A DNA stretch of 63,449 nt from a virus: positions 1 through 63,449 of IMG/VR virus record IMGVR_UViG_3300012986_000064; one strand, 5' to 3'. This document shows, in pieces, positions 613-20,764 of this stretch. Position 1 is the first letter of the stretch. Every line of letters starts with the position of its first letter. The notes below the pieces were generated by a model. It ran no database searches, had not been told where the DNA came from, and was given only the letters and a program-made list of their open reading frames with translations. The position numbers and the translations under genes are program-made.

Positions 613-3600
613 TTACCCGCGTTCATGGTAGCGGCTATTCATTTCCTCTACCCACGTATTGTCCTTGCGGGTCCAGGTGCGCAACCCGTCCTCGGTCAGC
701 CGCTGCTCAGGCCGCGACAGGATGGCATCGACAATCCTATCCGCATCAATGCGGCTGGCCTGGTAGGCAGCGCGGGCCTCGGCTGCTTCGCGCGAACTGC
801 TGCGCCCGGCCGAATGTACGCGCAGCGCCGTGGTTTGGCGCTCCATGTCGGCGTGCTCTTTCCGGGCCACCAGCCGCCCATTTATCAGGTCGTTTTCCTG
901 CAGCAGCTGCTCGGTGCGACCGGCCGTGTACACCTTGTCGCCCGCTTCCAGCCGCTGAATGCCTTCCTGGGCCACGAGCCGGAAGCCCCGGCTTTCGTGC
1001 CCGACCAGCTCCGGGCCCCGCTCGGCAACCAGCGCGTATTCGGCCGGGCCACTTTCCCGGCCTTTGTAGTAGGTGGGCAGGGGCTTGGCCGCAATGGCCA
1101 CGGCCTGCGCCACGCCCTGGGCAATGACGAGCGCCGCCAGCACGCCGGCGCTTACCCCGAAGTCTGCGTAGCGGGTGCCGCCCCCGGTGCTGAGCACCGA
1201 CGTTACGGCCTGCGCCGTGTTCAGGGCCACGTTGAACAGGGCCTGCGCCTTGTCGTACTCGGCCTGCTTGCGCCGTGCCGCCAGCTCGCGCCGACGGTAG
1301 TTTTCCTCAATCTGCTGCCGTAGCTCGGCATTCTCGCCGGCCACGGACAGTTCCTGTTCTTTCGAGTGCTGCAGGTTGGCCAGCTCTTCCGCCCGCCGGT
1401 CGTTGCCGTACTGAAAGAAGATGTCGCTGAACGCCTGGGTTTGCTCCAGGCTGGTGCGTAGAATATCCTCGCGCTTCTGGGCCGCTTCGCGGTCCAGGTC
1501 CTCGGCCTGCTGATTCTCGCGGCGCTTGATTTCCAGCCGCAGCGCCGCGGCTTCCCGCTGCTTGGTAACGTCCTTGTCGAGGTTGGTCAGCTTGTCGCGC
1601 AGGTACTGCGTTTCCAGCCCAAACACGGCCCGCTGGTAGCCCCGCTCGGTGTAGAGGCCCAGCGCCCGGGCGTTTTCCAGCTTGGTCTGCTGCTCGGTGT
1701 AGCGTTTGTCCAGGTCGCTGTTGCTCAGGTCCGCGTTGGGGTTGCGGGTCTTGCGCAGCTGCTCGGCAATGGCCGCATCCTCCTGCGCCTGAATCTGCTT
1801 TAGCACTTCCGCGTCGCCTTTGGCCGCGTTGCGCTTAATGGCCGATTCTATCAGGACGATTTCAATGCGCTTGGCACTGGCATCGAGCAGGGCCTGCTGC
1901 CGCTCTTCGGCGCTGCGGTTTTCGTCTTCGCCGATGCGCTCCAAGGCCTGGGCCTCTTCGTCGAGCACCTGCTTATCGACTTCGGCCAGCTGGGCCGCGG
2001 TTTCGTGGGTTAATGCCAGCAGTGCCGCGTCGGAGCTGATGTTGAGGGCCTTGATTTTGGCCAGGAACTGCTCGTGGATGTGCTGCCGCTCCACACGCAG
2101 GGCCTTATCCCCATTTACCAGCTTGGCGTTGCGCACCGCCGCCTGCCGCAACTCTTCCTGCTCTTCGAGGGCTGCAATCTGCCGGCGGGTTTCGGCCGCT
2201 TTCTGCACGGCGCGGGTGCGTACCTCGTCAGAGTTGGCGTCGTTGCCGGCCTGCCGGTCGTAGTCGGCCGCTTTCTGCTCGAGGCGGAATTTCTGCAACT
2301 CAAATTCAGCGTGCAGCACGTCGGCTACCGACTGCTTTTTCTTCTTGTCGGCTTTCACCGAGTCGTCTACTTTCTCCGTCTGGTCTTTCGTCGACTGGGT
2401 GAGCAGGGCAAACGCGCCTTCCGCATCGAGCCCCAGCCGGGCCAGCTGCCGCAGCACCTCGTCCCGCTTTTTCTCCGAAAACACGGCCTTATCCGTCGCG
2501 GCGGCGCTGCGGGTGGTCAGGTCCAGGTACTCTTTGTAGGTCTGCACGACTTCCGGCGTTACCCGGTCATCGGGTGCCCCGTACAGGGCCGGGTTGCTGG
2601 CTTTTTCGGCCTGCACCCGCATCACGCGCAAAATATCGGCTTGCCCCTGCAGGCCGGTCGCAGCCGTCAGGGAGCGCTCGCGAATAGATGCTTCCTCCTG
2701 TAGGGCGGATGCCAGGGCAGCAGCGGCCTCGCGCTCCTCTTCGAAGCCCTTCAGGCGCTTGGCCAGGTTGGTGGCATCCTCCGTGAACTTGTCGCGGTTG
2801 GCCTTGGTGTTGCGGGCGACAGCGGCCGTGTTCAGGTCGTACTGCCCGGTCTGCCTGTTAAGCACCACGGCCGTTTCGCCCAGCCGGTCTTTCAGCTGCA
2901 GCACGGTTTCGCGCAGCTGCTGCTGCTCGGCATCGGTCCGCTGGGTGATGCTGTTGAGGCGCGTAAAGCGAGCCATCAGCGCATCGGTGCCGTCGGCAAA
3001 CTGCCGGGCCTTCAATGCCGACGTGGCCAGCCCTTCGCCCAGGTCGGCAATGGGGGGCTTGCTCAGGCCCACCAGGCGGGGAATGGCCCCGAAGCCCTTG
3101 CTAAAGTTCAGCGAGGCCCGGGCCCCATCAACCAGCCACTTCAGCGATGCCGCGCCGGCCCCGCTGGTGAAGAAGTTGCTTACGTCGTTTTTGAGCTTTG
3201 CCCACGAGCCGGCCAGGTTGTCGTTTTTAATGGCAGCCTCCGCTGCCAGTGATGTGCCCTGCTCCAGCTGCTCATTGGCAATGGCCTGCTTTTCGGCCAG
3301 CAGGTCCACGTTTTTGGCCAGCGTGGTAATTACCGACTTCGCTTCCCCGCTCTGCAGCTTCAGCGTACCCAGCAGGCTGTTGAACCTGGTGGTGCTGGTG
3401 CCGCCCTCGCGCAGGCCGCGCAGGAACAGGGTAATGGCGCCCTGAAAATCGTTGTTCACCAGCCGCTTGAATTCCTTCAGCGTCAGGTTGGAATCCGCGA
3501 GCTTGGCAATCTTGAACGATTCTTCGGAGCGGGTGCTGAGTGTATTAAACAGCCGGTTCAGCGACGTGCCGCTGACCTCGGCATTAAAACCGGTTTCCTG

Positions 3601-5097
3601 CAACACGGCCGCATACGCCAGCACGTCTTTCAGGCCCAGCTCCGCATTGGAGGCCACGGCCCCGGTGCGCAGGGCCACGTCGGTGAGGAACGGTGCCGTC
3701 GCGGCGCCGCTGGCTCCCAGCTCATTCACGGCGGAGCCGATGCGCCGGATGTTGTCGGGCACATCGTCGCCCAGCTCCTTGCGGAAGACGGTGCCAATCT
3801 TGCCGATTTCGGTGGCAATCTGCTCGGCCCCGCCCTGAAAGTCATCCTCCAGCGCCTGCACGGCCACGTCGACTTCGCGCGTAAAGTCGCCGATGTCTTT
3901 GCCAGCAATGCCCAACTGGCCGCCTACTTTGGCAATGTCGAGCAGCCCGGCCAGGGTGGTGCGGGTGTTCAGGGCCTTCAGGCTCTCGGTGAGCTGGTCG
4001 GTGGCGTCGGCCGATAGCTGCGTGGTTTTGCGCACATCAGCTATCTGGTCGGAGTACTCGGCTACGCTCTCAAACGTCTGGCCCAGGGCGCCAATCAGGG
4101 CCGTTACGCCCAGGAAGGACGTAACCAGCGACTGGCCCATGCCCGCCGCGCCACTGATGAAGCTGTTGGAGGCGGCGCCCCCGTTGCGGGCCGCCGCGCC
4201 GTACTTGTTGAGCTCGCCGGTGATGCTGCGCAATTCGGCTTCGGTGCGGTCGATTTCGGCCCGCAGCTTGCGGTTTTCCTCGGCACTGATGTGGCTGGCA
4301 TTGGCCTGCATCTTCAGGGCCTGCACCTCGCGGGTCAGCGCCTCGCGCTTATGGTTGAGGGCCGTCGTGGCTTCGATGATGCCACGGGCGTAGGAACCCA
4401 CCTCCCGGAAGTTCTGATTCAGCTCCCGGTCGAAATCCTTCAGCTTTTGGGTATTGTCGAAGAATTCCTTCTTCATCCGGGCCGCCGCCTCGTTGGTGGC
4501 ATCGAAGCCACCGGGCAAGGCCCGGATTTTATCACCCAGCTTTTCGGTTTCGATGCGCAGGCGGTTGTAAGAGCCCGCGACGGCCGTGAACTCCGAGTTG
4601 GCCCCGCGAATCGCTTTGCTGAGCTGATCGGTGTCGCGCTTGTACTGCTGCACAGCCAGCGCCGCCTTGGTGATGCGCTCGGCATCGTTGGCCGCGTAGG
4701 CTTCTTTCAGCTCTTTCTGCAGGGCACGCAGGGCCGCTGTAGCTTCCTTGTCGGCATTGGTCGCAGCCTGCCGGATGCTGGCCTGACCCCGCAGGGCGGC
4801 CTGGTAGTCCTGCTGCTCTTTGGCCAGCTTGTTAACCTCCGCGCTGAGCCGGGCAAGGCTGGCCCGCTCGGCTTCGCTGGTGGTGTTGAGTTGTTCGGCC
4901 TGCTGCCGCAGCGCCTGGGTGCCGGTGGTGATGGCTTGCAGGCCCGCGCCAATGCGCTGCCCGTCGGACTCCAGGTTTTTGCCCAGAACTTTCACATACC
5001 GGCTCAGGGTCGCGACGGATTTACCCAGCTCGTCAAGCTCAGCACGGCCTGGGCCGGTGGGTCCGAATAATTCGTCGAAAGAAATAGGTCCAGCCAT
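613..5097 (-). CDS. phage tail tape measure protein A (TP901 type)
   Basis: Sets tail length and is packed inside the tail tube; 1494 residues with the start placed at the MAGPISFDELFG methionine. That start matches the N-terminus of tape measure B, while the longer in-frame extension is low-complexity and overlaps the upstream gene. Residues about 30-310 are long coiled coil. A TP901-core region follows (about 320-620, including a hydrophobic stretch near 320-345), then more coiled coil, a hydrophobic Ala/Val segment (about 1280-1340) and the conserved ERGPELVGH motif near 1355. It is homologous along its whole length to the gene at 14077-18609. It is the last gene of the leftward transcript, separated from its own expected partners (chaperone, distal tail) and following a lysis-type cassette. 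Intact, with no frameshift seen. Confidence 0.92.
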   Translation of the reverse strand: MAGPISFDELFGPTGPGRAELDELGKSVATLSRYVKVLGKNLESDGQRIGAGLQAITTGTQALRQQAEQLNTTSEAERASLARLSAEVNKLAKEQQDYQAALRGQASIRQAATNADKEATAALRALQKELKEAYAANDAERITKAALAVQQYKRDTDQLSKAIRGANSEFTAVAGSYNRLRIETEKLGDKIRALPGGFDATNEAAARMKKEFFDNTQKLKDFDRELNQNFREVGSYARGIIEATTALNHKREALTREVQALKMQANASHISAEENRKLRAEIDRTEAELRSITGELNKYGAAARNGGAASNSFISGAAGMGQSLVTSFLGVTALIGALGQTFESVAEYSDQIADVRKTTQLSADATDQLTESLKALNTRTTLAGLLDIAKVGGQLGIAGKDIGDFTREVDVAVQALEDDFQGGAEQIATEIGKIGTVFRKELGDDVPDNIRRIGSAVNELGASGAATAPFLTDVALRTGAVASNAELGLKDVLAYAAVLQETGFNAEVSGTSLNRLFNTLSTRSEESFKIAKLADSNLTLKEFKRLVNNDFQGAITLFLRGLREGGTSTTRFNSLLGTLKLQSGEAKSVITTLAKNVDLLAEKQAIANEQLEQGTSLAAEAAIKNDNLAGSWAKLKNDVSNFFTSGAGAASLKWLVDGARASLNFSKGFGAIPRLVGLSKPPIADLGEGLATSALKARQFADGTDALMARFTRLNSITQRTDAEQQQLRETVLQLKDRLGETAVVLNRQTGQYDLNTAAVARNTKANRDKFTEDATNLAKRLKGFEEEREAAAALASALQEEASIRERSLTAATGLQGQADILRVMRVQAEKASNPALYGAPDDRVTPEVVQTYKEYLDLTTRSAAATDKAVFSEKKRDEVLRQLARLGLDAEGAFALLTQSTKDQTEKVDDSVKADKKKKQSVADVLHAEFELQKFRLEQKAADYDRQAGNDANSDEVRTRAVQKAAETRRQIAALEEQEELRQAAVRNAKLVNGDKALRVERQHIHEQFLAKIKALNISSDAALLALTHETAAQLAEVDKQVLDEEAQALERIGEDENRSAEERQQALLDASAKRIEIVLIESAIKRNAAKGDAEVLKQIQAQEDAAIAEQLRKTRNPNADLSNSDLDKRYTEQQTKLENARALGLYTERGYQRAVFGLETQYLRDKLTNLDKDVTKQREAAALRLEIKRRENQQAEDLDREAAQKREDILRTSLEQTQAFSDIFFQYGNDRRAEELANLQHSKEQELSVAGENAELRQQIEENYRRRELAARRKQAEYDKAQALFNVALNTAQAVTSVLSTGGGTRYADFGVSAGVLAALVIAQGVAQAVAIAAKPLPTYYKGRESGPAEYALVAERGPELVGHESRGFRLVAQEGIQRLEAGDKVYTAGRTEQLLQENDLINGRLVARKEHADMERQTTALRVHSAGRSSSREAAEARAAYQASRIDADRIVDAILSRPEQRLTEDGLRTWTRKDNTWVEEMNSRYHERG

Positions 5098-5099
5098 AA

Positions 5100-5459
5100 C
5101 TACGGATGCATTAGTAAGGTGTAGCTGATGCCGGCGAGAAGGGCAGCACCGGCCCAATTGAGCAGCCCCCGCCGGCGGGCGCGGGCTTTCCAGGTAGCGG
5201 CCTGTCGGCTCTGCTCGTCGAAGGCGGCCACGGCCGTCAGCCACGCCACGGTTGTGGTGCGCAGCTGCAGGGAATCAGCTTCGTAGGCCGCTTTGTAGTG
5301 GCCCGCCGCTACCGCAAAATCCCGCCGCTGCCGGCGCAGGGTGGTCAGCGTGTCGGCCAGGCGCACCCGCGTTGCTGGTGCCAGGCAGCGGAACTCAGAG
5401 GGTTGACAGTACACTGTCTGAGTAGTGCACAGTAGCAGGAGTAACAGGAGTAGGCGCAT
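5100..5459 (-). CDS. small exported or membrane protein, spanin-like
   Basis: A 119-residue protein with a poly-leucine signal peptide (starting MRLLLLLLLL), a helical charged middle (about 35-95) and a C-terminal hydrophobic segment ending a few residues before the terminus. The start chosen is MRLL; a methionine five codons upstream is also possible. A Cys at the end of the signal peptide lies in TVYC, which is a poor lipobox. It overlaps the preceding gene in another frame, as spanin gene pairs (Rz/Rz1) often do, and sits with holin-like genes, so an envelope role in lysis is likely. I see no direct homology to a known spanin. Confidence 0.6.
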   Translation of the reverse strand: MRLLLLLLLLCTTQTVYCQPSEFRCLAPATRVRLADTLTTLRRQRRDFAVAAGHYKAAYEADSLQLRTTTVAWLTAVAAFDEQSRQAATWKARARRRGLLNWAGAALLAGISYTLLMHP

Positions 5460-5652
5460 GGGGAGCAGTGGCACGGTGAAGGGCAGCGCGGCCGAGTTGG
5501 GCCGCTGCTGCGCCGGGGTTTGGGTTGGGGGTGGGGTTGGCCGTTGTAGCGGGCGGGGCGTAGGCCACCAGCCAGAACAGCAGGGCCACCAGGGCAGCCA
5601 AGCCGCACAGGCCCATGGCGACGGGCAGCCAGGACGGGGAGTAGGCTTTCAT
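5395..5652 (-). CDS. small single-pass membrane protein in lysis-type cassette
   Basis: An 85-residue protein with one strong N-terminal membrane segment (about residues 8-30) followed by a Pro/Thr/Ala-rich tail. The start is the MKAYSPSW methionine, three bases after the stop of the holin-like gene; the upstream in-frame extension simply overlaps that gene. Its last 20 codons overlap the next gene in a different frame. The membrane anchor plus proline-rich periplasmic tail recalls one partner of a nested spanin pair. Function is inferred only from position and topology. Confidence 0.55.
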   Translation of the reverse strand: MKAYSPSWLPVAMGLCGLAALVALLFWLVAYAPPATTANPTPNPNPGAAAAQLGRAALHRATAPHAPTPVTPATVHYSDSVLSTL

Positions 5653-5654
5653 GG

Positions 5655-6104
5655 CTATTCCGTCTGGGTGGTGGTTTCTACCTTGGTCGTAGTGGTAGCC
5701 GTGGGGGTGGGCCCCGGCACTGGCTGCCCTGTCAGCCCGGCCTGCTGCACGTCGGCTTCGGCCTTGATTTTCTTCGTGTTTTCGTACATGTTGAACCCAT
5801 GCCCAGCAGCCAGGTAGGTGAGTAGCGGCCAGAGCACGTCCGGCTGCCACTTATCGGTCAGGCAGCCGCGGACCACAATGGCCCCCACGTACATGGTCAC
5901 GGCCCACAGGCTGAGCTGCTTGCCGTCCGCGCGCCCGCGGGGGTCGGTGAAGCTCTCGCCAAAGAAGCCGGCCAGCTCACGGATGAATTGGCGGTTGAGC
6001 AGCCAGGCCACGCAGAGCCCAACGGCCAGCCCTGCCAGGCAGGCCAGCACGGCGCCCATAACGGTAGGCGAGAAGGAGGAGAAAAAAGCGATGGGCTCTT
6101 GCAT
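5655..6104 (-). CDS. holin-like membrane protein
   Basis: 149 residues with about three hydrophobic segments (roughly 13-35, 67-84 and 90-107), short polar loops and a Thr/Pro-rich soluble C-terminus. The size and topology fit a phage holin, which would collect in the inner membrane and open it at the time of lysis. It lies in a run of membrane protein genes (5100-7365) on the leftward late transcript. The endolysin itself is 15 kb away (21202-21729). The family is not identified from sequence alone, so holin is an inference from topology and context. Confidence 0.6.
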   Translation of the reverse strand: MQEPIAFFSSFSPTVMGAVLACLAGLAVGLCVAWLLNRQFIRELAGFFGESFTDPRGRADGKQLSLWAVTMYVGAIVVRGCLTDKWQPDVLWPLLTYLAAGHGFNMYENTKKIKAEADVQQAGLTGQPVPGPTPTATTTTKVETTTQTE

Positions 6105-6112
6105 GGCGGGGC

Positions 6113-6505
6113 TTATTTGTCGGAGATAAAATCAGCAAGGGGAATGCCCAGGTGCTGGGCAATGCGCAGCGTCAGCCGCCACTGCTGGCCGTCGAGCTTG
6201 CCCGACTCGTGCAGGTTGCTGAGCACGTCGGCCAGCTGCTGCAGGTAGTGGCGGTACTTCTCGCCCAGCTCGGCCCGCACGTCCTGATTCGCGGTATTGG
6301 CCTTCACCACTTCCCCGTGCAGGCGCTCAGCCGTGGCCTGGTGCGCAGCCTTTTCTTTGAGCAGCTGCACGACCAGCCAACCCACGGCGAGCAGGGCCAG
6401 GGCCAGCAGCACCGACACGACGGCCAGGGCAATGCCCACGTCCCAGAGCAGGGGCAACCCGCGCGTGAGCGCGGTTTCGGCGGCTTTGGTTCCTAGTTCG
6501 TTCAT
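6113..6505 (-). CDS. membrane-anchored coiled-coil protein (holin accessory candidate)
   Basis: 130 residues: an N-terminal membrane segment (about 20-50), a helical coiled-coil stretch (about 50-95) and a short C-terminal domain reading LRIAQHLGIPLADF. One anchor plus coiled coil is common among small phage lysis or holin-partner proteins. Its ATG overlaps the TGA of the PAS-domain gene (ATGA), so both are probably translated as a coupled pair. This is the strongest link between the PAS sensor and lysis. No named family is claimed. Confidence 0.6.
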   Translation of the reverse strand: MNELGTKAAETALTRGLPLLWDVGIALAVVSVLLALALLAVGWLVVQLLKEKAAHQATAERLHGEVVKANTANQDVRAELGEKYRHYLQQLADVLSNLHESGKLDGQQWRLTLRIAQHLGIPLADFISDK

Positions 6506-7365
6506 GCGGCGGGGGTAGAAGTAGAAGAGCGGGGAAAGCGGGATAGCACGTCGTCGAGGTGAGCTTCGGCCCGGCGGGTCAGCTCCTGGTCGCGGGCCGC
6601 AAACAGGGCCCGCACGTTTTCTTCATCGTCGGTGAAGGAGGTGATGCGCAGCACGCTGCCATCGGCCGCGACGTGGTTGCCGGCCGACACGCGCACCCAG
6701 CGCCGCCCGCCATCGGCCGTCAGGAATTCCATGGGGTATTCCACATGCCCCACCTTGCCGACCTGCTTTTTCACCTGCTCGTGCCGCTGCTCGGGCACAA
6801 TGGACGCGCCATGCAGCGACACCAGCCCGTTGCGCTCATCCGTTTCGTAGGCGTAGCCCAGCATGGCACAGGCCCGGCGGTTGGCCGCCGTGATGCGCCA
6901 CCCCAGCGGAGTAGTCGCATCGGGCCGGGAATAGAGCACCCCACAGTTGCTGGCATCAAGGGTGGCATGCAGCAGCCGGTCGCGCTCAATCACGGCCACT
7001 TCCGGGTACAGGCTTTCCAGGGCCCCGCGCCGGGCCCAGCAGTAGCCGGCGAAAGTCAGGGTGAAGATGGCCGCGGCCGTTTTCAGGTAGATGTGGGTAA
7101 CAGCGTTATATAAGCCCAGCGCCTCGTTGATGAATTCAAACGCGAAGGCCCCGGCAATGCTCAGCAGCCAGAAAAACACGATGCGGGCGAAGCTTTTCCC
7201 GTCGACCGTCTGCGCCACCCGGGCCCGCCGGGCCACATACAGCACCGTAGCGGGCAGCAGCACACCAAACGAGGCCGCCAGCAGGGCATTGGCCACCAGG
7301 GCGAGGTACAACACGGGCAGGGGCGTAATGGGCAGGGCGAGCGGAAGCATGGGCGACGGGGGCAA
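6502..7365 (-). CDS. membrane protein with C-terminal PAS domain
   Basis: 287 residues with three N-terminal membrane segments (about 16-45, 60-85 and 90-110), then a PAS/PAC domain (about 118-260) containing the typical ITAANRRACAMLGY stretch and the PAC-like RWVRVSAG strand, then a short charged helix. There is no kinase, cyclase or other output domain. PAS domains bind ligands or sense redox or light state, and the membrane part could transmit or sense envelope state. The 3' end overlaps the next gene as ATGA, placing the sensor inside a holin-type cassette of a phage. That is unusual. Role in timing of lysis is inference; a moron captured from the host is the alternative. Confidence 0.75.
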   Translation of the reverse strand: MPPSPMLPLALPITPLPVLYLALVANALLAASFGVLLPATVLYVARRARVAQTVDGKSFARIVFFWLLSIAGAFAFEFINEALGLYNAVTHIYLKTAAAIFTLTFAGYCWARRGALESLYPEVAVIERDRLLHATLDASNCGVLYSRPDATTPLGWRITAANRRACAMLGYAYETDERNGLVSLHGASIVPEQRHEQVKKQVGKVGHVEYPMEFLTADGGRRWVRVSAGNHVAADGSVLRITSFTDDEENVRALFAARDQELTRRAEAHLDDVLSRFPRSSTSTPAA

Positions 7366-7378
7366 AGGGTGGGGGCGA

Positions 7379-7597
7379 CTATTTCAGGCAGTCCGGCACG
7401 GCCTGCGGCACGAAGTCCGTATCGGCCAGCTCTTCCAGGGTGTAGTCGAGGGCGTCGAACAGCGGGGCAAAGTCCACCAGGCACATGGGCGCGAAAGCAA
7501 AGCGGCCGTCCAGCAGCTCGCGGCAAGCGAAGAAGTCGCCGGCCTCATTCTGGTAGCCGTCCGGGGCGGGGTTGGCAGTGGTGATGGCGTAGAGCAT
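7379..7597 (-). CDS. small hypothetical phage protein
   Basis: A 72-residue acidic protein with no membrane segment or known motif; a short Asp/Glu-rich C-terminal half (about 40-65) stands out. It lies between the distal tail gene at 7601 and the PAS gene with gaps of 3 and 13 bases, so it is very likely co-transcribed. It could be a fibre chaperone or assembly factor, as small genes after tail fibre genes often are, but nothing in the sequence proves this. Confidence 0.55.
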   Translation of the reverse strand: MLYAITTANPAPDGYQNEAGDFFACRELLDGRFAFAPMCLVDFAPLFDALDYTLEELADTDFVPQAVPDCLK

Positions 7598-7600
7598 GGA

Positions 7601-8464
7601 TTAGACGTTGCGGCCCAGGGCCGTTAGGCAGGTGATGGCGAGGCTGTCCCAGGCGGCTTCCTGGGTAGCAGAGGCCCCCAGCAGAATGGCGGCCTCGCCC
7701 ATGGTGTGGGGTGAATTGCCGTACACACCGCCCGGGATGCCGGTGGCCCCGAGCAGCACCGAGCGCGTGGGCAGGGTGCCCGCCCCAGAGCCCGCACTGA
7801 GCAGCGTGCCGTTCTTGGTCAGTCGGTTGGTCGTCACGGCTGGCTGGCGGTTCACCGAGTACAGGCCCAGGCCACGCACGGCCGCGTTGGATTCCTGCAC
7901 GTACTGGTCAATGGTGAAGGCTTTGCAGTAGGCCACGTCGTTAAGCGAGCCCCCGGCGTTGTTGCGCCCCGATAGCGCAAACGTGGCAGAGCCCGAGGAA
8001 ACGGCCCCCATGTCGTAGCAGTCCCCGCCCAGCGCATTGCTACGGGAATAGTAGTACAGCCCCATGCCGGTGGTGAGGCTGCCCGCCACGGACGGAACTA
8101 GCAGCGTGTCGGCGTACTGCGTGGTGCCGTTCCAGGCCATGCCCCCGCCAAAAGGCGTCGGGCTGCCGTAGAGCACCAGCCGGTAGGCAGCATCCAGGTC
8201 GCGCGGGTCTTTGGCGTTGAGCTTGTTGGCGGCCGTGGTCGCGCCCAGGCAGGGCCACCAACCTAAAACGAGGCCCTGCAGCCCCGCATCCTTGATGCCT
8301 TGGAAGCGGTTATTGATGGCCGTCCAAATCTGTGCCCCCGTGCGCTCGTAGCTCGTGCCGGCGTAGAGTGACGAGCCGTCGTTTGGAATGCCGGCCGCTG
8401 TCAGGTAGGCGTAGGCATCCGCATCAAAGCCACTGCCGAGCAAAGTGTGTCGTCTGCTGCCCAT
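7601..8464 (-). CDS. distal tail or receptor-binding protein candidate
   Basis: 287 residues, rich in Gly, Ala, Ser, Thr and aromatic residues, with a beta-rich pattern (for example GGGMAWNGTTQYAD and several YYYS/YGN segments) like LamG or concanavalin-type carbohydrate-binding domains of phage fibres. It follows the fibre gene by 2 bases and precedes the lysis-type cassette, the usual place for host-recognition proteins. No signal peptide. The assignment rests on composition and position. Confidence 0.55.
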   Translation of the reverse strand: MGSRRHTLLGSGFDADAYAYLTAAGIPNDGSSLYAGTSYERTGAQIWTAINNRFQGIKDAGLQGLVLGWWPCLGATTAANKLNAKDPRDLDAAYRLVLYGSPTPFGGGMAWNGTTQYADTLLVPSVAGSLTTGMGLYYYSRSNALGGDCYDMGAVSSGSATFALSGRNNAGGSLNDVAYCKAFTIDQYVQESNAAVRGLGLYSVNRQPAVTTNRLTKNGTLLSAGSGAGTLPTRSVLLGATGIPGGVYGNSPHTMGEAAILLGASATQEAAWDSLAITCLTALGRNV

Positions 8465-8466
8465 CG

Positions 8467-9960
8467 CTAGTAGGTTTTAGAAGCCCAGTAGAAATAGGTG
8501 CCGTCGTAGAGCCAGCTCAGCTCGGTCACGGCGTTGGCCGTATTACCCACACTATAGGAGCCCTTGCTGTTTGCAGGTGGCGTCAGCGTATAGACCGTGG
8601 CAGTAGCGTCGTGCGTAATCAGGATGATGCCCGTAGCCCCACTCACAGCCCCCGTAATGGCCAGCGTGGTGTTGGCGGCCAAAGGCATCGTATAGTTGGG
8701 GTTCAGCTTGCCGCCAGTGGCCAGCGTCACCGTGCCTGACACGGCTGCGGGCGCAGCACTGAAGGCGGGGTCGTACTTGGCAATGGCGGCCGTGTTGGTG
8801 CTGATATTGGCCGTGTTGGTGCTGACTGTGCCAAACACCTCATTGATGGCAGCAACCAGGTTGCCTTTGGCTGTGGTACTCAGGCTGGCCAGCGTGCCGA
8901 TGTTGCTGACAATGGTTGTAGTGAGGGCCTTCAGCTCATTGATGGCCGCTACTACGCTTGTCTTTATTGTAGTCGTGAGAGCGGCCAGGCTGCCTACTTT
9001 CACGTCCGTCGCCAGCATGTTGTTGGTGATGGAGTCGTTGGCAATCACCACGCCCGTATCGACGGTGAACGTCCCAGCAGCCACGTCAACCGTGCCGTAC
9101 TCAATCGTGCTGGCCGTGGGCAGCCGCACCCCCCGCGGGTGAAACTGCCGGTTGCTGGCTGCATACACCTGCACTTCCCCGCCGGGGAAGTTGTAGATGT
9201 CGTACCGCTTGGCTTTCTCCAGGGTATGCGCCGCCATCGTCGACTGTGCCAGGCTCAGCGACACCGACAGCGTGGGCAGGTAGGTCGTGCCGGTACTGGG
9301 CGAAATCTCTTTGTAGTTGGCATCCTCGCCCCCCAGCGGCGGCTCCGGCACCAGGGCCGGGCTACCGCTCGGAAACAACTGATGCTTCACCACAAACAGG
9401 CGAATTATGCTATCCGAGCCTTCGTATTTCACCTCCCAACCCGTGTTCTGCACAATCGTGCGGTCCAGCGAGCGGTAGGCGGCGTACTGTGCCTGCGGGG
9501 CCGTTTCCGGGTACCACTCGCACAGCACCCGGTCGTTCTGCGCCGGGTCGGCCGGGGCGCCGCCGGCATTCCAGAAGCCAAATACCGAGCCATTGCCCGA
9601 CTGCGCCACCAGCACAAACACCGCCGGTGAGGCCGTTTGCCCGGCTTGCAGCTCCAGGGGCGTGGCCGGGTTGTTGACCCGCACGCGGGTACCTACCACA
9701 AGGCTTTCCGGCGCGAGCCCGCTCCGGGTAGTGGCCCAGGTTGGCATGCCCACCCAGGGCTGCAGGTAGTCTACTTTCTTATCGGCCCCGCGCAGGCGGT
9801 TGGCGTTGAACAGCGTTGCATCGCCCAGGCCGCTGGGCGCCTGAGCCGGCAGGTACCGGTACTCCCGGTCCGTGTCCGGGTCGTAGAAAAACAGGATGCC
9901 GTTGGCGGGCACCGTGCCGGTCCACACCGGAAGGTCGCGGATGTCTTTATTGAGCGCCAT
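8467..9960 (-). CDS. tail fibre protein
   Basis: 497 residues. The N-terminal part (1-300) is a mixed beta domain. Residues about 320-400 carry repeated units of the type L-T-T-T-I-K/S...V-A-A-I-N-E, the helical repeat typical of trimeric phage fibres. The C-terminal 90 residues are Thr/Gly-rich beta and end in an aromatic strand (WLYDGTYFYWAS). It should bind the host surface at the tail tip. It has its own copy of the conserved palindromic motif ending 10 bases upstream of the ATG, suggesting separate late expression. Confidence 0.75.
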   Translation of the reverse strand: MALNKDIRDLPVWTGTVPANGILFFYDPDTDREYRYLPAQAPSGLGDATLFNANRLRGADKKVDYLQPWVGMPTWATTRSGLAPESLVVGTRVRVNNPATPLELQAGQTASPAVFVLVAQSGNGSVFGFWNAGGAPADPAQNDRVLCEWYPETAPQAQYAAYRSLDRTIVQNTGWEVKYEGSDSIIRLFVVKHQLFPSGSPALVPEPPLGGEDANYKEISPSTGTTYLPTLSVSLSLAQSTMAAHTLEKAKRYDIYNFPGGEVQVYAASNRQFHPRGVRLPTASTIEYGTVDVAAGTFTVDTGVVIANDSITNNMLATDVKVGSLAALTTTIKTSVVAAINELKALTTTIVSNIGTLASLSTTAKGNLVAAINEVFGTVSTNTANISTNTAAIAKYDPAFSAAPAAVSGTVTLATGGKLNPNYTMPLAANTTLAITGAVSGATGIILITHDATATVYTLTPPANSKGSYSVGNTANAVTELSWLYDGTYFYWASKTY

Positions 9961-9968
9961 GCCAGAGA

Positions 9969-9997
9969 ATTAATGTTTGTAAAGTAAGTACATTAAT
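9969..9997 (-). promoter_or_regulatory. late motif copy 1 (fibre gene)
   Basis: Palindromic arms ATTAATGT / ACATTAAT (8 bp) flank a 13-base centre that reads TTACTTTAC on the coding strand. The core is 9971-9995, and the ATG of the fibre gene follows 10 bases later. One of six near-identical copies, each upstream of a structural or packaging gene. Confidence 0.75.
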
Positions 9998-10027
9998 CGC
10001 GCTTTGCCATACCGGCCCGGCATCTGC

Positions 10028-11824: not shown

Positions 11825-11827
11825 GGC

Positions 11828-14041
11828 TTACGCGGAAAGCACCGCACAGGCCAGCAGGGTAAAGTCTCCCTCTTTCTTGGCGGCGTTGTGTTTGACAGTG
11901 AGCACCCAGCCCTCGCAGGGCCGGCTTTTGGCGTCGAGAAACCGCACCCGGCCGTAGGGCTGGGCGAAGAGCTGCGCGGCTTGGGGTGCCGTCAGCGGGC
12001 AGGTAAACGTGTAGTCGAGCGGCAGCCAGAGCGGAGCGGCCAGCTCATCGGTGAGCACGTCGGCCGATTCGGCGATGTCGGCCGTTTCGGTCTGCAGGCG
12101 GCTCACCACGTTGTTGTTGCCTTCCCCAAAGGCGAAGCGCACCACGGCCGAGCCGCCCAGCGGGGCCAGGCCGGCCCGCAGCGCGGCCCCGTGGTTGCGC
12201 AGGTTGCGGGCCGGGCTCCAGATGGCGTTGTACACCGTTTCGGGCGAGAGCATGCCATCGAGCCGGGCAAAGCGCTGGTTGCGCTCGGTTTCAAACCCGC
12301 CCCCGTCCTTGCGCAGCAGGGCAATCAGGAAGTTGTTGTTATCGGTGGCGCCGTCCGTGGTTGAGGTTTCGCTGTAGCGCTGCCGGCGCACCAGCTCCAG
12401 GCGCAGACCGCTGGTGATGTACCGGCTCACGGCCGTGAGGGCATTCTTAATCCGGGTCAGGGGTGTGGTCCACTGCCGCTTTGTGTTGAACTCATCAAGG
12501 CCGTTGACGCCTTCGGGCTCCCAGGTTTCGTAGCCGACCTCCACCGTGTTGTAGTGGCGCTCGGCATTGACTTTGGCCGTGGCATCGAGTGGCCCCAGGC
12601 CGGTGAGGTCCAGCACCACCTGAGCCGGGTAGAAGTAGGCCATGGGTTCCACGCGCACCACCGATTTACCCGTGGGCTGCAGCCGCTCGATGCCGTAGCC
12701 CAGGCCGTGAATAGCGGCCAGCGAGTCGTAAAGCTCGCGCCACGAGGCAAACAGCGACTTGCGTGAATCCGGCGCCGGGGCCGTGGGCGACGCATCAAAT
12801 GGGGTGGGGAAGCCCCGCAGCTGAAAGCCGCCCGCCACCAGGGCCAGTGCCCCCGGCCCGTCTTCGTCGTAGGGAATGCGGGTGTCGGTGCGGCCGAAGT
12901 AGGTGCTGCGGAAGGCGTCGGGCGTGTCGGCAAGGGCCGTGCTGAGCCGGTCCAGTGCTTCATACACCAGCAAGCCGTTGCAGGGGGTGGGGGCGGTCTG
13001 CGTCACGGCCGTAATGCGCAGGTACGACCCTTGCTCCAGCGTGGCGTAAACAGTTGTATTAAAAGTTACTATGCCAGTGTCGGGGTTGTGGTAGTAAAGC
13101 TCCGCGTAGAGGTACACCGCATCGTTTTCATTCAGCGTTGCCTGAATTGTGGTTGGCGGAATGGCAAACTGATGGGAGTAGCGGTTTCCATCTATGGCAG
13201 TGGTGAAGGAGTCCGTGGCCAGCACAGTAGCCGTGCTAGGGTCGCCGTTGATGCGGAAGTGGTACTTGATGTCGATAGTGCGCCCGCCGGGTCCCATCAG
13301 CGTCTGAATGGTATCGGTAAGCGCAAACTCAATGGTAAGTTCTTCTTGGCCCTTAGCCTGGTAAATGGGCACGGCCGTTGTCGCGTCGCCCGAAGTCAGT
13401 ACCGGCGAGCCGGCCGCAAGGCCTAGTTCATCTGTTGTTACCTTGGCAAAGCCGAAGTAGCGCGTCTGCGAGCGGCTGTCGTCGTCAAAAAAAAGCCCTT
13501 CGCTTATGACGGGAGGCAGGTTCGCCGGGTTTGAAACATCATGCCGCTTCACCACGGCACGGCTGTGCAGCTCCACCGTTAGCGGGGTTTCTTGGCGACT
13601 GGCAGCCCCGCTCACAGTAGTGTTGCCCCACAGGTCTATTGGCACATCGTCGCGGTTCAGGAAACGCTGGCTGAAGTCTTCGTTTTCGACGTTGCACCTA
13701 ACCTCCGTGCTGGTGAACTCAGCGTCTGAAAAATCAATACGCCCCCGGTAGTACTCGTCGTATAGCCAAGTGTTGGGGTTTTCCTGCTCAATGAGGACCC
13801 GCACGTCAGCTTCAATGCCCAGCGTGGCGTAGGCTAGCTCCAGATAGGCTTTGGCTTCCTTGATGAAGCCCATCTGAACTGAATAGTCAAGCAGAAGGCC
13901 ATGTGTCGCAGATGAGCGGGTAAGCGTTTTCCCTAATTCGTCCCAGCCGATGGGGTCGTTTTTGAGCACGAGCGGGCCTAAAATGTCGCTATCGAGGGTG
14001 AAGCGAAACCGGGGCGAGTTTTGGGCGAGTAGAGTTGTCAT
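11828..14041 (-). CDS. tail-associated protein (baseplate candidate)
   Basis: 737 residues from the MTTLLAQNSPRFRF start; eight extra in-frame codons upstream lie inside the palindromic motif and are probably not translated. The protein is beta-rich with no membrane segment. Its position directly after tape measure B matches the distal tail or tail-associated protein slot of siphoviruses. The first 38 codons are duplicated, inverted and truncated at 22579 (35 of 38 residues identical), so this gene was involved in a rearrangement. It starts 1 base after late motif copy 2, implying an extremely short leader. Confidence 0.65.
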   Translation of the reverse strand: MTTLLAQNSPRFRFTLDSDILGPLVLKNDPIGWDELGKTLTRSSATHGLLLDYSVQMGFIKEAKAYLELAYATLGIEADVRVLIEQENPNTWLYDEYYRGRIDFSDAEFTSTEVRCNVENEDFSQRFLNRDDVPIDLWGNTTVSGAASRQETPLTVELHSRAVVKRHDVSNPANLPPVISEGLFFDDDSRSQTRYFGFAKVTTDELGLAAGSPVLTSGDATTAVPIYQAKGQEELTIEFALTDTIQTLMGPGGRTIDIKYHFRINGDPSTATVLATDSFTTAIDGNRYSHQFAIPPTTIQATLNENDAVYLYAELYYHNPDTGIVTFNTTVYATLEQGSYLRITAVTQTAPTPCNGLLVYEALDRLSTALADTPDAFRSTYFGRTDTRIPYDEDGPGALALVAGGFQLRGFPTPFDASPTAPAPDSRKSLFASWRELYDSLAAIHGLGYGIERLQPTGKSVVRVEPMAYFYPAQVVLDLTGLGPLDATAKVNAERHYNTVEVGYETWEPEGVNGLDEFNTKRQWTTPLTRIKNALTAVSRYITSGLRLELVRRQRYSETSTTDGATDNNNFLIALLRKDGGGFETERNQRFARLDGMLSPETVYNAIWSPARNLRNHGAALRAGLAPLGGSAVVRFAFGEGNNNVVSRLQTETADIAESADVLTDELAAPLWLPLDYTFTCPLTAPQAAQLFAQPYGRVRFLDAKSRPCEGWVLTVKHNAAKKEGDFTLLACAVLSA

Positions 14042-14042
14042 A

Positions 14043-14067
14043 TAATGTACGTAAAGTAAGTACATTA
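14043..14067 (-). promoter_or_regulatory. late motif copy 2 (tail-associated protein)
   Basis: Here the arms are perfect over 8 bases (TAATGTAC / GTACATTA) around TTACTTTAC. The gene ATG follows after one base, so any transcript starting downstream of the TACTTTAC box would be leaderless or nearly so. Confidence 0.75.
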
Positions 14068-14076
14068 TTGACGGTT

Positions 14077-17000
14077 TTATTGCCGTCTATATCGCTTGTT
14101 CACCTTCTGTAACCAAGTGTCGCCTTTTTTCACAAATCGCTGCAACTCTCCCTCGCTTACTCGCAATTGCTCCTGGCTCTCTACGGCCTGCACTATCCGG
14201 TCGCCTAGTCGCTCCAGGTCGAGGCGACTGCTATGATAAGCTGCGCGCGCCGCCGCCGCTTCTCGGCTAGCTTGCCTACCAGGTGCAGAAGCGCGGAGAG
14301 ATTGCGCCTGCTGTTCCATATCTGCTTCGTAGCGACGCTGAACAAGCCTGCCGCCTATTAACTCGTTCTGCTGCAATATCTGCTCTGTGCGAGGCGCAGT
14401 AATTACACGGTCTCCTGCTTCTAGGCGGGTTACGGTTTCCTGGGCCACCAAGCGGAAGCCCCGGCTTTCGTGGCCTACCAATTCAGGGCCACGCTCGCCA
14501 ACGATAGCTAATTCTGCGGGGCCTCCTTCGCGGCCTTTGAAATAAGCTGGCAACGGCTTAGACATTACAGCCGCTATTTGTGCCGCCCCTAAAACGCCCA
14601 CAGCCGCCCCAAAGGCGATACCTACAGGGCCAGGAAATTCAGCAACGGCAGCAATAACCGCCTGCGCCGTGTTGATAGCAATGCTGAAAATAGCAGCAGC
14701 CTTATCAAACTGGGCTTGCTCCCGCTTCAAGGCCAGGCTACGGCGGTGGAAATTATCTTCAATTTGAGCCCGTAGCACAGCGTTTTCTCCTGCATTGGCG
14801 AGGTTGCGGTCCCGCTCTGCCTGAATGTTATCCATCTCAGCCGAACGCAGGTCGCTGCTGTATTGAAAAAAAGCATCAGCATACGATTGGGTAATAGCGA
14901 AGCCCTGCTGAATAATGCGCCGCTTAGTTTCCTCCTTTTCTCTAAACTCAGCTAGTTCACGGTCATTTTTACGCCTAGCAATTTCTAGCTCCAGGTCAGC
15001 CGCTTCTTGTTGCTTGGTTGCGTCCTTTTTAAGGTTGTCCAGCTTCTGCTGCAAGTTGGCATCCTCTAGCAGTTCCAGTGTGCGGTAATACTGCTTTTCG
15101 GTATATTCCCCGGCCGCTCGGCTGTTTTCAAGCGCTAGCTGTTGCGCCCGATATTGCTTAGCTAGGTCATCATTAGCAAGGTCGGCATTGAACGGGCGGG
15201 CGGCGGCTTGAATAGCGGCCGTGTCGTTAGCCTGTTTCTGCCGAATCTCTTTGATTTTGCCGGCGCTTCCCTGTGCAGCCCGCACTTCTTTGTCGGCTTG
15301 CAAATCGACTATCTCAATGCGCCGGTCAGCCGCCTGAAGCGCGGCTTGCTGCCTTTCTTGGTAAGTCAGGTTTTCATTGGCAACAATGCGGTCTAGCGCA
15401 GCCAGTTCCCCCTCAATAACCAACCTGTCTACGTCTGCTAATTGGTCCAGCAGGGCATTACGCAAGGCCAATAGCCGCTTGTCGCCAGTGCGCTCAATCT
15501 CAATCGACTTGTTTTTAAAGTCTTCACTCAGCCGCACCCGCACCACGCCTAAAGCTTGCTCGCCGTTGATTTTTTCGGCATTGGCCTGTCGGGCCTCTCG
15601 CAGCAATTCATTTTGTTCCAGCTTGGCTAGCTCAATCCGGGCAGCAGTGCCTTTCTGTGCGGCCCTGGTGCGGATTTCTTCGCTATTAGCAGGATTGTCG
15701 TATTGGCGGTCTAAGTCTGCAATCTGGGCTTCTAGCTGTTGTTTGCGACGCAGGTATTCCTCCTTCGCCACATCAGCCACCGCCGCCTTTTTCTTCTTAT
15801 CGGCTTCGAAGTCGTCGGTGGTTGCCTGGGTGTTTGCTTTGGTGGCGTCTGTTGTTTTCTTGGTCAATGCAGCCAATGCAGCCGCAATACGGGCGCGCTC
15901 CTGCTGCTGTCGCTTCAATTCGGCCTCCGATTCAGCCAGGGCTTTTTCAGCCGTCGTAAGCGCTTCTACCGTGCGGACTTGGGTTTTGGGTAAGTTGTCG
16001 ACTTCCCGCGTTTGCGCCGTTGGCCCCAGGGTCTTACGAACTTCCTCCCGGTATGCCAACGCCTCCCGAATGTCCTTAACCCTGCTTTCGCCAATGCCAG
16101 CCTTCGTGACACCTAATTGAGCCTTACCCACGGCCTGTTGCAACTCGGCAACTTGCCCTTCTACGCTGGGCAGAATAGTGCTATCAAAGTAGGCTAGCTG
16201 GTCAGCAAGCAGGTCTTTATTAATCTGTGCCTGTCTCTGCTTTGCAGCAATAGCCCTTCCTACAGCCGACGTATTTAGGCTTAGCGCCTGGGTGCCTTTA
16301 TCCACTTGCACGACTTCGCTGCCCAGCATCTTTTGCAGGCGCAGGGTAATGTTGTTGAGCTCCACCTGCTGCGCGCTGGTACGGGTCGCGGCGGCCGTTA
16401 ATTGCTGGTAGCGGTCTAGTAGCTTCTGCGCCTCTTCTGCTTGTTTAGCCAGACTTTTGGTAGCAGACAGGGTGCTGCTTGCAAAATCCACGGGGGCCTT
16501 TGTGGGTAATACGCTATCCAGCCCCAGTTTCTTACCGAACGAACTTTTAGCAACCGCCTCACTGGCAGCCAGCGCCTGCGTTTTAATGTACCGGAACGCG
16601 TCGCCCACGGCTTGCAGGCGAGCCCGTTGCTCATCGATAACATCTTTGAGTTGCCCCGCAAAGAAGCCTTCCGTGAACAGATTAGAAAGGCCGTTTTTCA
16701 ACTTCGCCCACGAACCGGCCAGGGTATCATTTTTAACAGCCGCTTCTGCTGCCAATGACGTGCCTATTTTCAGTTGTTCATTGGCTGTTTTTTGCCGCTC
16801 GGCTACCAGCTCTGTGTTTTTGGCGAGGGCAGTTAATGCGCTCTTGGCTTCGCCGCTGTTCAGTTTCAACGTGGCGAGCTTTGCTGAAAAGGAAGTGGTT
16901 GTGGTGTTACCACTGTTCAACCCGCGCAAGAACAATTGCAGGGCCGCGTCCATGTCCGTATTAAGCAGCCGCTTAAATTCTTTCAACGTCAGGTTAGTAT

Positions 17001-18609
17001 CAGCCAGCTTGGCAATACGGAAGGCTTCAGCAGTGCGCCCTGTCAGGGTGTTGATGATACGATTTAGGGCAGTGCCCGAAACCTCAGCTGAAAAGCCTAA
17101 CTCCTGCAGCACGGCCGCATAGGCTAGTACTTGAGGCAAGCCAACTCCTGCATTGGCCGCCGTGGCACCTACGCGCAGCGCTACATCGGCAAGCTGTGGC
17201 GCGGTGGCTGCGCCAACCGCCCCCAACTCATTTAAGGCACTGCCAATGTCTAGTAGCTTCTGTTCGGTATTCTTGCCCTCAAACTGCTTGCGGAAAACCA
17301 CGCCGATTTTGCCTAGTTGCGTAGCTATTTCCTCTGCATTGCCTTGGAAATCGTCGGAAAGGGCTTGGTTGGCAATGTCAATGGCTTTGGTAAACCCTAA
17401 GACCTCATCCTTCGCAATGCCGAGTTGGCCCGCAACTTTGGCAATATCCAATAGCTCCGCAAGGCTGCTGCGAGTGTCAATCTGCTTTAAGTTCTCAGCC
17501 AGGCGCGCGGCTTCGTCGGCTGAAAGCCCGGTTGTCTTTCTAACATCCGCGAGGGCATCACTATAATTTACCAGGTCGCTAAATACGCCTTTTAGCACCG
17601 TGGCCAGCCCCTGCACACCAAAATAAGCCCCGGCGAATGCCTGGCCCAGCCCGCCTACATTGTTAGCCAGCCCAGCCGTAAACCCGCCGCCCTGCTTCAC
17701 GCCCACGCCGTAGTTGCGAAGCTGCCCGTTTACCTTGCCCAGCTCGGCTTCTGTCTGCTTGATTTCGGCCTGTAGCTTATTCTGCTGCTCAGTCGATAAG
17801 CCCGTAGCCTGCGACTGAGTACGCAAGGCAGCCGCGTCAGCCAGCAGGGCACGGCGCTGCTTTTCCAGCGCCCCTACGGCCTCAATGATACCCTCTGCAT
17901 ATCGGCCAACATTCTTATAGCCCTGGTTCGTGTCCTTGCCAAAGGTTATGATGGCTTGGTTGACTTCTGCCAGTCGGGCCTTCATCTGCTGGGCTTCTGC
18001 GCTGTCAGCCTGCATACCCCCGGCCAGCGCCTTCAATTGCGAGTCGAGTTGTCGGGCCTCGTTTTCCAACGCCCGGTAGCTGCCCTGCGCTGCCGTAAAG
18101 GAGCTATTCGCCCCGCGCAAGGCACGGTTCAGGTCTTCGGTTTCCCGCTTCAGGGCCAGGATAGCCTGAGCCGCTTGCTTGGCCACCTCTGTGTTTCCCG
18201 CTGCATAGGCTTCGCGCAAAGCATCCCGCTGCTTTTTTAGTTCGGCCGTGTAACCCTTTACCGCCTCGCCAGCGGCCTTATCGATGCCCGCTTGACCTGC
18301 CTTGGCTGCTTTGAGCAACTGCTGCTGCTGGGCAAGTTTCGCTATTTCGGCACCTAATGCAGCCAATGATGCCCGCTCTTGCTCGCTTGCCAGATTGATG
18401 CCTGTAACCTGGGTGCGTAGCGCCTGAGTATTCTGGGCAATCAACGCCAACCCGGTTGCCACCTTGGCCCCGTCGGCTTCAATATTTTTGGCAAATGCCT
18501 TGTAATTGCGGTTGAGCGCCTGTACTTCTTTTGTGAAGTCGGCTAGCTCCTGCTTGCCGGGTCCAAGCTCATTAAATAGCTCGGAATAGGAGATGGGGCC
18601 TGCTGCCAT
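14077..18609 (-). CDS. phage tail tape measure protein B (TP901 type)
   Basis: 1510 residues. Same architecture as tape measure A: N-terminal MAAGPISYSELF, coiled coil to about 300, hydrophobic Gly/Ala stretch near 310, TP901 core (about 330-620), long charged coiled coil, hydrophobic segment (about 1306-1353) and the GERGPELVGHE motif near 1370. It determines tail length and may help DNA entry. Base composition is noticeably more AT-rich than tape measure A, so the two copies probably come from different sources rather than a recent duplication. It lies in the expected order after the chaperone/endolysin block and before the tail-associated gene, so it is likely the resident copy. Late motif copy 3 precedes it. 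Confidence 0.93.
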   Translation of the reverse strand: MAAGPISYSELFNELGPGKQELADFTKEVQALNRNYKAFAKNIEADGAKVATGLALIAQNTQALRTQVTGINLASEQERASLAALGAEIAKLAQQQQLLKAAKAGQAGIDKAAGEAVKGYTAELKKQRDALREAYAAGNTEVAKQAAQAILALKRETEDLNRALRGANSSFTAAQGSYRALENEARQLDSQLKALAGGMQADSAEAQQMKARLAEVNQAIITFGKDTNQGYKNVGRYAEGIIEAVGALEKQRRALLADAAALRTQSQATGLSTEQQNKLQAEIKQTEAELGKVNGQLRNYGVGVKQGGGFTAGLANNVGGLGQAFAGAYFGVQGLATVLKGVFSDLVNYSDALADVRKTTGLSADEAARLAENLKQIDTRSSLAELLDIAKVAGQLGIAKDEVLGFTKAIDIANQALSDDFQGNAEEIATQLGKIGVVFRKQFEGKNTEQKLLDIGSALNELGAVGAATAPQLADVALRVGATAANAGVGLPQVLAYAAVLQELGFSAEVSGTALNRIINTLTGRTAEAFRIAKLADTNLTLKEFKRLLNTDMDAALQLFLRGLNSGNTTTTSFSAKLATLKLNSGEAKSALTALAKNTELVAERQKTANEQLKIGTSLAAEAAVKNDTLAGSWAKLKNGLSNLFTEGFFAGQLKDVIDEQRARLQAVGDAFRYIKTQALAASEAVAKSSFGKKLGLDSVLPTKAPVDFASSTLSATKSLAKQAEEAQKLLDRYQQLTAAATRTSAQQVELNNITLRLQKMLGSEVVQVDKGTQALSLNTSAVGRAIAAKQRQAQINKDLLADQLAYFDSTILPSVEGQVAELQQAVGKAQLGVTKAGIGESRVKDIREALAYREEVRKTLGPTAQTREVDNLPKTQVRTVEALTTAEKALAESEAELKRQQQERARIAAALAALTKKTTDATKANTQATTDDFEADKKKKAAVADVAKEEYLRRKQQLEAQIADLDRQYDNPANSEEIRTRAAQKGTAARIELAKLEQNELLREARQANAEKINGEQALGVVRVRLSEDFKNKSIEIERTGDKRLLALRNALLDQLADVDRLVIEGELAALDRIVANENLTYQERQQAALQAADRRIEIVDLQADKEVRAAQGSAGKIKEIRQKQANDTAAIQAAARPFNADLANDDLAKQYRAQQLALENSRAAGEYTEKQYYRTLELLEDANLQQKLDNLKKDATKQQEAADLELEIARRKNDRELAEFREKEETKRRIIQQGFAITQSYADAFFQYSSDLRSAEMDNIQAERDRNLANAGENAVLRAQIEDNFHRRSLALKREQAQFDKAAAIFSIAINTAQAVIAAVAEFPGPVGIAFGAAVGVLGAAQIAAVMSKPLPAYFKGREGGPAELAIVGERGPELVGHESRGFRLVAQETVTRLEAGDRVITAPRTEQILQQNELIGGRLVQRRYEADMEQQAQSLRASAPGRQASREAAAARAAYHSSRLDLERLGDRIVQAVESQEQLRVSEGELQRFVKKGDTWLQKVNKRYRRQ

Positions 18610-18615
18610 AGAATT

Positions 18616-18652
18616 AACCTTTAATGTTTGTAAAATAACAACATTAAAGGTT
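18616..18652 (-). promoter_or_regulatory. late motif copy 3 with 13-bp arms (tape measure B)
   Basis: The palindrome is longest here: AACCTTTAATGTT at 18616-18628 is the exact reverse complement of AACATTAAAGGTT at 18640-18652. The centre reads TTATTTTAC on the coding strand, one or two changes from the other copies. The tape measure ATG is 12 bases beyond the 25-base core (18622-18646). Confidence 0.75.
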
Positions 18653-19013: not shown

Positions 19014-19793
19014 CTATACCACAGGGCGGTTTTTCAGAAAGAACGTGCCAGGGGGGAGGGTGTTTAGAATATCGACGGCCGAACTGAAGCATTCTGTATA
19101 CCCCGAAAATGCTTTTTGTGGTTTGTAGCTCAGAGTTTTGAACTGTCTGTGAATGGCTTTTTCCAGCTCAAACACCTCTCTGACGTTATAACTTTTGTAT
19201 AAAGCAACTGTCCGCCATCTGTAAGGCATTCTGCGGCTAAACCTGCCACTCAGATTAAAGCTTATACCAACCTTATAAAATAGCTCATTCTCGCCGGTCA
19301 GCTCTATTATATAGAGAGTGGCTCGCCTTCCGTTTTGCCGACATCCCCAGCTACTGGCTGACCAAGGGCCGCCCCCTGGCCGGCCAATATTGCCCTGCCT
19401 CTTTCCGCACTTGGGGCAACCTTGTCCCTTCAAGTGCGCGTGTGGTGTTTGGGTAAAATTGCCGTGTTCCAGGCAGGTAATAACTATGGCTTCCTCAGTA
19501 CCTGCGTAGTTAGCTTGCTTATAACAGTAACGCTCGCCATGAATTTCACGAGCCTCGACTATAAACTGCTCTGTGGTTTTGGTGTTGAATATAATTCGGG
19601 AGGAAGTAGCGCACTGAGGGCACCCTCTTCCCTGCAAGTGCCCTCTTGTACGTTGCAAGAACCCTCCGTGCTGAGAGCAAGCAATTTCTACGCACGTCCT
19701 TGCATTCACGTACTTGGTGCGCGTGTAGTCATATCGCTCACCATGCACAGCGCGAGCCTTGGCTATGAAAGCTTCTGTTGTTAAACGCTTCAT
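19014..19793 (-). CDS. DUF723-type zinc-binding repeats with GIY-YIG-like nuclease domain
   Basis: 259 residues. Two consecutive repeats (about 5-60 and 75-135) show the pattern F-I-x-K/E-A-R-x-x-H-G-x-x-Y-x-Y ... C-x-x-H-G-x-F-x-Q ... H-L-x-G-x-G-C-P-x-C, as in DUF723 repeats of phage homing-type endonucleases. The C-terminal part (about 160-240) contains TLYIIEL and FYKVGIS strands followed by the ELEKAIH helix, like GIY-YIG/T5orf172 nucleases. It probably cleaves DNA and may promote its own spread. It is a likely freestanding homing endonuclease next to the second control region. Confidence 0.75.
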   Translation of the reverse strand: MKRLTTEAFIAKARAVHGERYDYTRTKYVNARTCVEIACSQHGGFLQRTRGHLQGRGCPQCATSSRIIFNTKTTEQFIVEAREIHGERYCYKQANYAGTEEAIVITCLEHGNFTQTPHAHLKGQGCPKCGKRQGNIGRPGGGPWSASSWGCRQNGRRATLYIIELTGENELFYKVGISFNLSGRFSRRMPYRWRTVALYKSYNVREVFELEKAIHRQFKTLSYKPQKAFSGYTECFSSAVDILNTLPPGTFFLKNRPVV

Positions 19794-20666: not shown

Positions 20667-20704
20667 CCATTCCTCATCTACTGGTGTTCCCCTTTGGAAC
20701 GATA

Positions 20705-20735
20705 CAAATGTACCAGTGCTTTTTTGGTGTTACAA
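20705..20735 (-). promoter_or_regulatory. Bacteroidota-type promoter for the S24-like gene
   Basis: On the minus strand TTG (20735-20733), a 20-base spacer and TACATTTG (20712-20705) match the -33/-7 consensus of Bacteroidota. The predicted start near 20698 gives a leader of about 128 bases carrying the tandem hairpins. Confidence 0.6.
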
Positions 20736-20764
20736 GTTTTTTACCAAAAAAAAACCAAAATATC

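Follow-up and report, generated by a model that had tools for sequence, protein, structure and literature searches.

To our knowledge, phages have a single tape measure protein (TMP) gene and a near-fixed order of tail genes. The two TMPs described here resemble siphophage TMPs (PF10145; phrog_25337) in family, in a length of about 1500 amino acids, in a conserved domain in the N-terminal half and in their position among late genes, but differ in being present as two intact and divergent copies, one in the tail module and the other behind lysis genes. Flavobacterium phages with related TMPs (vB_FspS_laban6-1, FPSV-D35), whose homology is partial (30% of the protein, at about 29% identity), carry one TMP each, unlike the locus described here. 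In the double R-tailocin cluster of Pseudomonas protegens CHA0, each TMP is accompanied by its own set of tail genes, and the TMPs differ in length, which gives particles of two lengths (PMC7815802). The present locus shares with this cluster the occurrence of two TMP genes in one phage-derived locus, but here doubling is confined to the TMP and the two lengths are near equal, and neither of these two marks of a two-tail system is seen. Full-text literature searches for two, second or duplicated TMP genes in one phage returned no direct precedent.

The stretch of DNA analysed, referred to as the window, is the whole of a 63.4-kb IMG/VR virus record (63,449 nucleotides), with a repressor gene at 60174-61175 and an integrase gene at 62145-63449. 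Its relatives, labelled G001 onward, point to a Hymenobacter-type bacterium as the host.

Two full-length tape measure genes in one record

TMP A (616-5097, minus strand; 1494 amino acids) is the last gene of a late/lysis operon. Its longest open reading frame extends over 613-5244 on the minus strand and encodes 1543 amino acids from a GTG start, while the natural ATG at 5097 (MAGPISFDELF) yields the protein of 1494 residues. TMP B (14077-18609, minus strand) has 1510 residues. Both reading frames are open and full length, and the two proteins align from end to end at 47% identity, with the greatest divergence in the middle of the protein (alignment columns 750-1050, 21-26% identical). Both match phrog_25337 and Pfam PF10145 (PhageMin_Tail), with PF10145 scores of 52.2 and 56.1 bits for the two TMPs against a cut-off of 33.2, and each matches several PHROG tape measure families. 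The original prediction, made from the letters alone, that this DNA holds two full-length homologous TMP genes is upheld by the intact frames, the continuous alignment and the shared families. A search of the whole record gave no third copy.

The two genes had also been predicted to differ in base composition, which is confirmed by an overall GC3 of 0.81 for A, as in the resident genes, against 0.58 for B; the gap holds in every part of the genes, with A at about 0.73-0.86 and B at 0.49-0.67. At 176 otherwise invariant sites A has 4 changes, compared to 3-6 in most single-copy orthologs, a low number that gives no support to A being a decaying gene.

With 1494 and 1510 residues, A and B lie close to the TMPs of most relatives (about 1460-1500 residues; 1404 in G090 and about 1370 in G207 and G208). 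A ring of the tail tube is about 4 nm. At 0.15 nm per residue, A corresponds to about 224 nm and B to about 226 nm, and since the gap of 16 residues, about 2.4 nm, is below one ring, two tail lengths are unlikely. Comparison of the window with itself revealed no second chaperone pair, fibre gene, intact copy of the tail structural gene next to B or complete tail set. The earlier suggestion of two kinds of tails is thus not supported as regards length, and just the TMP is doubled; virions might still come in two types, equally long but built on different TMPs.

Separate origins of A and B

In the TMP tree, A clusters with the TMPs of phages G001 and G002, and B branches outside the clade formed by A, G001, G002, G089, G120 and G047. 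Constraining A and B to be sisters is 212 log units worse and is rejected by the AU test (p=2e-7). Given this placement and the rejection of the sister pairing, the two genes derive from separate phages. The alignment with TMPs of related prophages, which had been proposed as a check, therefore places the two copies in different clades.

The A allele is nearest to those of G001 and G002, whose TMP sits in the tail module, and the TMPs of G206 and G209 are more divergent from A than those of G001 and G002. The site and the allele of A thus differ in their history, and A may itself have arrived by exchange.

Site of A behind the lysis-type genes

The portal genes closest to that of the window are found in G206 (72%) and G209 (60%). 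In both, the sole TMP closes the late operon, after the fibre and lysis genes, while in most other relatives the TMP is placed between the head genes and the homolog of the tail structural gene at 11828-14041, hereafter the 11828 gene. The operon that ends with A begins with a tail fibre-like gene (8467-9960, minus strand), which has homologs in G089, G001 and G206. This is followed by a lysis-type region (5100-8464, minus strand) of small membrane or spanin-like genes and others, the translations of which include hydrophobic segments and a lipoprotein-like start. The ATG of A is 2 nt past the stop of a spanin-like gene, and A is co-directional with the lysis-type genes. On its other side, a bidirectional terminator at 574-613, a palindrome with T runs on both sides, separates A from a plus-strand gene at 1-564. 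The lysis genes near A have no detectable homology with their counterparts in G206 and G209, while the architecture is alike, so the shared site of these TMPs is defined by gene order and gene type.

The original prediction described A as isolated from its normal neighbours. A does come last, after spanin-like genes, but the TMP of G206 and that of G209 have this position as well, so A is not a misplaced copy and B is the addition. Reading A as a displaced copy, as seen from phages of the G001/G002 type, was dropped given the position of the TMP in G206 and G209. A accordingly occupies the TMP site of its lineage, as judged by the head module, with B as the probable newcomer to the tail module.

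Late-promoter-like elements

A partly palindromic 25-nt element, TAATGTNNNTANTTTACNNACATTA, stands directly before terS, the major head and fibre genes, the 11828 gene and B, in each case pointing into the gene. Six sites are present in the window (9971, 14043, 18622, 22550, 41892 and 44551), where none is expected by chance. From this placement the element is a putative late promoter or operator. The copy before the fibre gene (9971-9995, minus strand) is of the resident type, being the same at 25/25 positions as those at 22550, 41892 and 44551. The copy before the 11828 gene (14043-14067, minus strand) is a variant with a sequence unlike the resident type, and the one before B (18622-18646, minus strand) is of a foreign type, with 25/25 positions identical to those of a G089 element. 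No such element belongs to A itself; going upstream from A, the first one met is that at 9971, with co-directional genes in between. Similar elements precede the TMP in G001, G002, G089, G120 and G031, and a search of viral contigs for the exact late element gave no match. Several relatives each have their own near-identical set of 25-nt elements, which suggests that the element co-evolves with a phage regulator.

The block around B

The tail structural gene that follows B (phrog_15220; 11828-14041, minus strand) is likely composite, with a GC3 shift inside the gene from 0.65-0.71, which is low, in the 5' part to 0.82-0.88, which is resident-like, in the 3' part. In the five homologs examined, GC3 is roughly even along the gene. 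The likely chimera is read from composition, as both halves group with G206, G209 and G031 in the trees; phylogenetic proof of it failed, both halves giving the same clade.

On the other side of B lies an HNH endonuclease gene (19014-19793, minus strand) with a GC3 of 0.52, whose homologs are found near the tail cassettes of G207, G208 and G210. Nuclease genes (homing endonucleases) are known to mark the boundaries of gene exchange in phages (PMC10448857). The window agrees with this in having the HNH gene inside the exchanged block beside B and its homologs near relatives' cassettes, homing and cutting being putative here, and the gene is probably a boundary gene of the imported block. Further along are an endolysin or tail lysozyme-like gene (21202-21729, minus strand), which has a G001 homolog in the lysis region, and a tail assembly chaperone-like pair, G/GT (21736-22514, minus strand), with the GC3 of the resident genes (0.88). 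Its two frames are joined at the A-run AAAAAAAAAC, where a frameshift is predicted, and the chaperone identity is likewise putative. This G/GT-like pair is in the module of B, with other genes between it and B, and not beside A; neither is G/GT adjacent to the TMP in G206 and G209.

The G/GT pair of the window is inverted relative to that of G206 and G209, in which it points away from the 11828 gene. Next to it, at 22550-22691 on the plus strand, is an inverted relic that consists of a resident late element and the first 38 codons of a resident 11828 gene, 86% identical to 13929-14067. The divergent junction of G, late element and 38 codons of the 11828 gene is thus preserved in the window at 22.5-22.7 kb, in inverted form, and the distance between the two divergent starts is about 50-65 bp both in G209 and in the relic. 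An active invertible switch at this 142-bp inverted repeat was considered and rejected, the identity being only 86%, and the repeat was kept as a scar. No invertase was found among the genes scanned; the integrase at 62145-63449 is the only recombinase recognised.

Tail gene arrangement in relatives

A single TMP was found in 9 relatives in Hymenobacter-family genomes, in 1 virus record and in 4 virus records found through their portal genes. Regions of 40 kb (20 kb for G076) were searched fully, several of the records being fragments, and in the search across the family the best two candidates per genome were scored, from which a distant second copy could escape. In G206 the sole TMP (L084 4816-9252) is split into two open reading frames by a stop or frameshift. 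Among annotated phage records with an A-like TMP, 222/222 have one matching place. A fifteenth relative, G210, has a full TMP and a second, decayed fragment at 23953-24332 that contains stops and is 62% identical to B over 74 amino acids, compared to 47% to the TMP of G210 itself. With 14 relatives having a single locus and the fifteenth a full copy and a fragment, two intact copies are as unusual as had been predicted.

The order and orientation of the TMP, chaperone and tail genes are unusually variable in this phage family. The order TMP-G-11828 is found in G002, G089, G120 and G047, and G001 has an inverted TMP followed by G-11828. In G090 and G207, G is followed by an inverted TMP and then the 11828 homolog; G031 has the order G-TMP-11828, as does the window around B. 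An inverted G lies between the TMP and the 11828 homolog in G003, G004 and G210. Finally, G206 and G209 combine inverted G-11828 with the TMP at the end, which is the site of A in the window. HNH genes accompany several of these arrangements. Such variation among about 15 relatives offers a simple route to double copies, by modular exchange between phages in which a given gene has different sites.

In G208, two full alleles of the 11828 gene with 76% amino acid identity are inverted around the HNH gene, G/GT and the TMP, apparently a fuller version of the inverted relic in the window. Together, the double 11828 gene of G208 and the decayed TMP of G210 suggest that partial duplication of tail genes by module exchange recurs in the family and is followed by decay.

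Four of the relatives, G031 (L055/L056), G003 (L058/L059), G004 (L060/L061) and G210 (L116-L118), contain a TMP, G/GT, an 11828 homolog and a terS-like gene, and DnaB-type replication genes were seen in those scanned (G031, G003 and G210). No terL (phrog_979) is present near the TMP in G031, G003 and G004, and the portal and head genes of the window have no match in any of the four elements. G210 ends in direct repeats of 99 bp. In make-up they resemble satellites or tail-only elements that carry a TMP of their own.

Origin and use of the two genes

That two related phages recombined, one of the two origins offered in the original prediction, is supported by phylogeny, composition, the sequences of the late elements and synteny. 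We consider it probable that the prophage is a TMP merodiploid, which arose when two related phages, each with its TMP at a different place, recombined. Resident A would have been the last gene of the late/lysis operon when a block from a relative, made up of the HNH nuclease gene, B with the late-promoter-like element before it and the 5' part of the 11828 gene, entered the tail module at the 11828 gene. Because the resident TMP lay at another site, B would have been added without replacing A, and the same rearrangement would have inverted G/GT together with the beginning of the resident 11828 gene, which now lie beyond the block. Expression of both TMPs would be late, that of A relying on read-through from the 9971 element and that of B on its own element, with the two proteins competing for a single set of chaperones and tail-tip proteins and giving tails of practically one length. 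This double state would probably be transient, with one copy decaying later. As to use, the likeliest case is that A and B are redundant or competing in a merodiploid that is perhaps recent. The window may thus serve as a natural test of whether two co-expressed TMPs compete, mix or build separate particles.

A broader reading, in which the TMP, G/GT and the 11828 gene act as cassettes, each with a promoter of its own, that undergo repeated reordering, inversion and doubling, leading to two alleles and to mixed or alternative tails, is doubtful. Somewhat less probable still is a stable use of both TMPs in two virion types with equal tails that differ, for example, in DNA entry at the host membrane. 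Both frames are intact, A is constrained like the single-copy orthologs, the divergence of A from B peaks in mid-protein (columns 750-1050) and late elements can reach both genes, all in keeping with such use; but the single set of chaperones and tail-tip genes and the near-equal lengths argue against it, as does the composition of the B block, which suggests a more recent entry, and no other phage with two intact TMPs was found.

The four identical elements of 25-28 nt could have misled an assembler into joining two phages, but the 11828 gene stays in frame across its composition shift, the inverted relic with its resident element fits a real rearrangement and partial duplications of a like kind are seen elsewhere in the family, making a misassembly quite improbable. 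It is even harder to credit that A is part of another prophage, lying alongside and truncated by the window edge, which had been named as the finding that would overturn the original prediction. A does lie at the edge of the record beside the plus-strand gene at 1-564 (GC3 0.45), and the ends of the record fall exactly on gene boundaries, but A follows the lysis-type genes of this phage by 2 nt in the same direction, the same layout with one TMP is seen in G206 and G209, and the bidirectional terminator closes its operon. As for B being a drifted recent duplicate of A, homology over the full length is what such an origin would give, but 47% identity, the different clades and the AU test (p=2e-7) led to its rejection, and it has almost no chance of being correct.

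Other features of the window

Beyond the tail module, 22833-31691 is a low-GC cargo zone with a GC3 of about 0.36-0.55, in which a similar terminator repeat follows several genes. One protein of this zone is like the PADLOC candidate PDC-S47, and another is weakly like Aga_HEPN. The 3' end of a small ribbon-helix-helix-like gene (20684-20965, plus strand), with the C-terminal sequence LSALVRLLIKDEARRLGIE, is repeated at 29819-29869 and 31839-31881, the copies occurring in both orientations. Among 204 family genomes, 2 have a homolog of the plus-strand gene at 1-564, whose low GC3 is given above; in one of these it is separated by about 2 kb from a homolog of the PAPS-reductase-like gene of the window.
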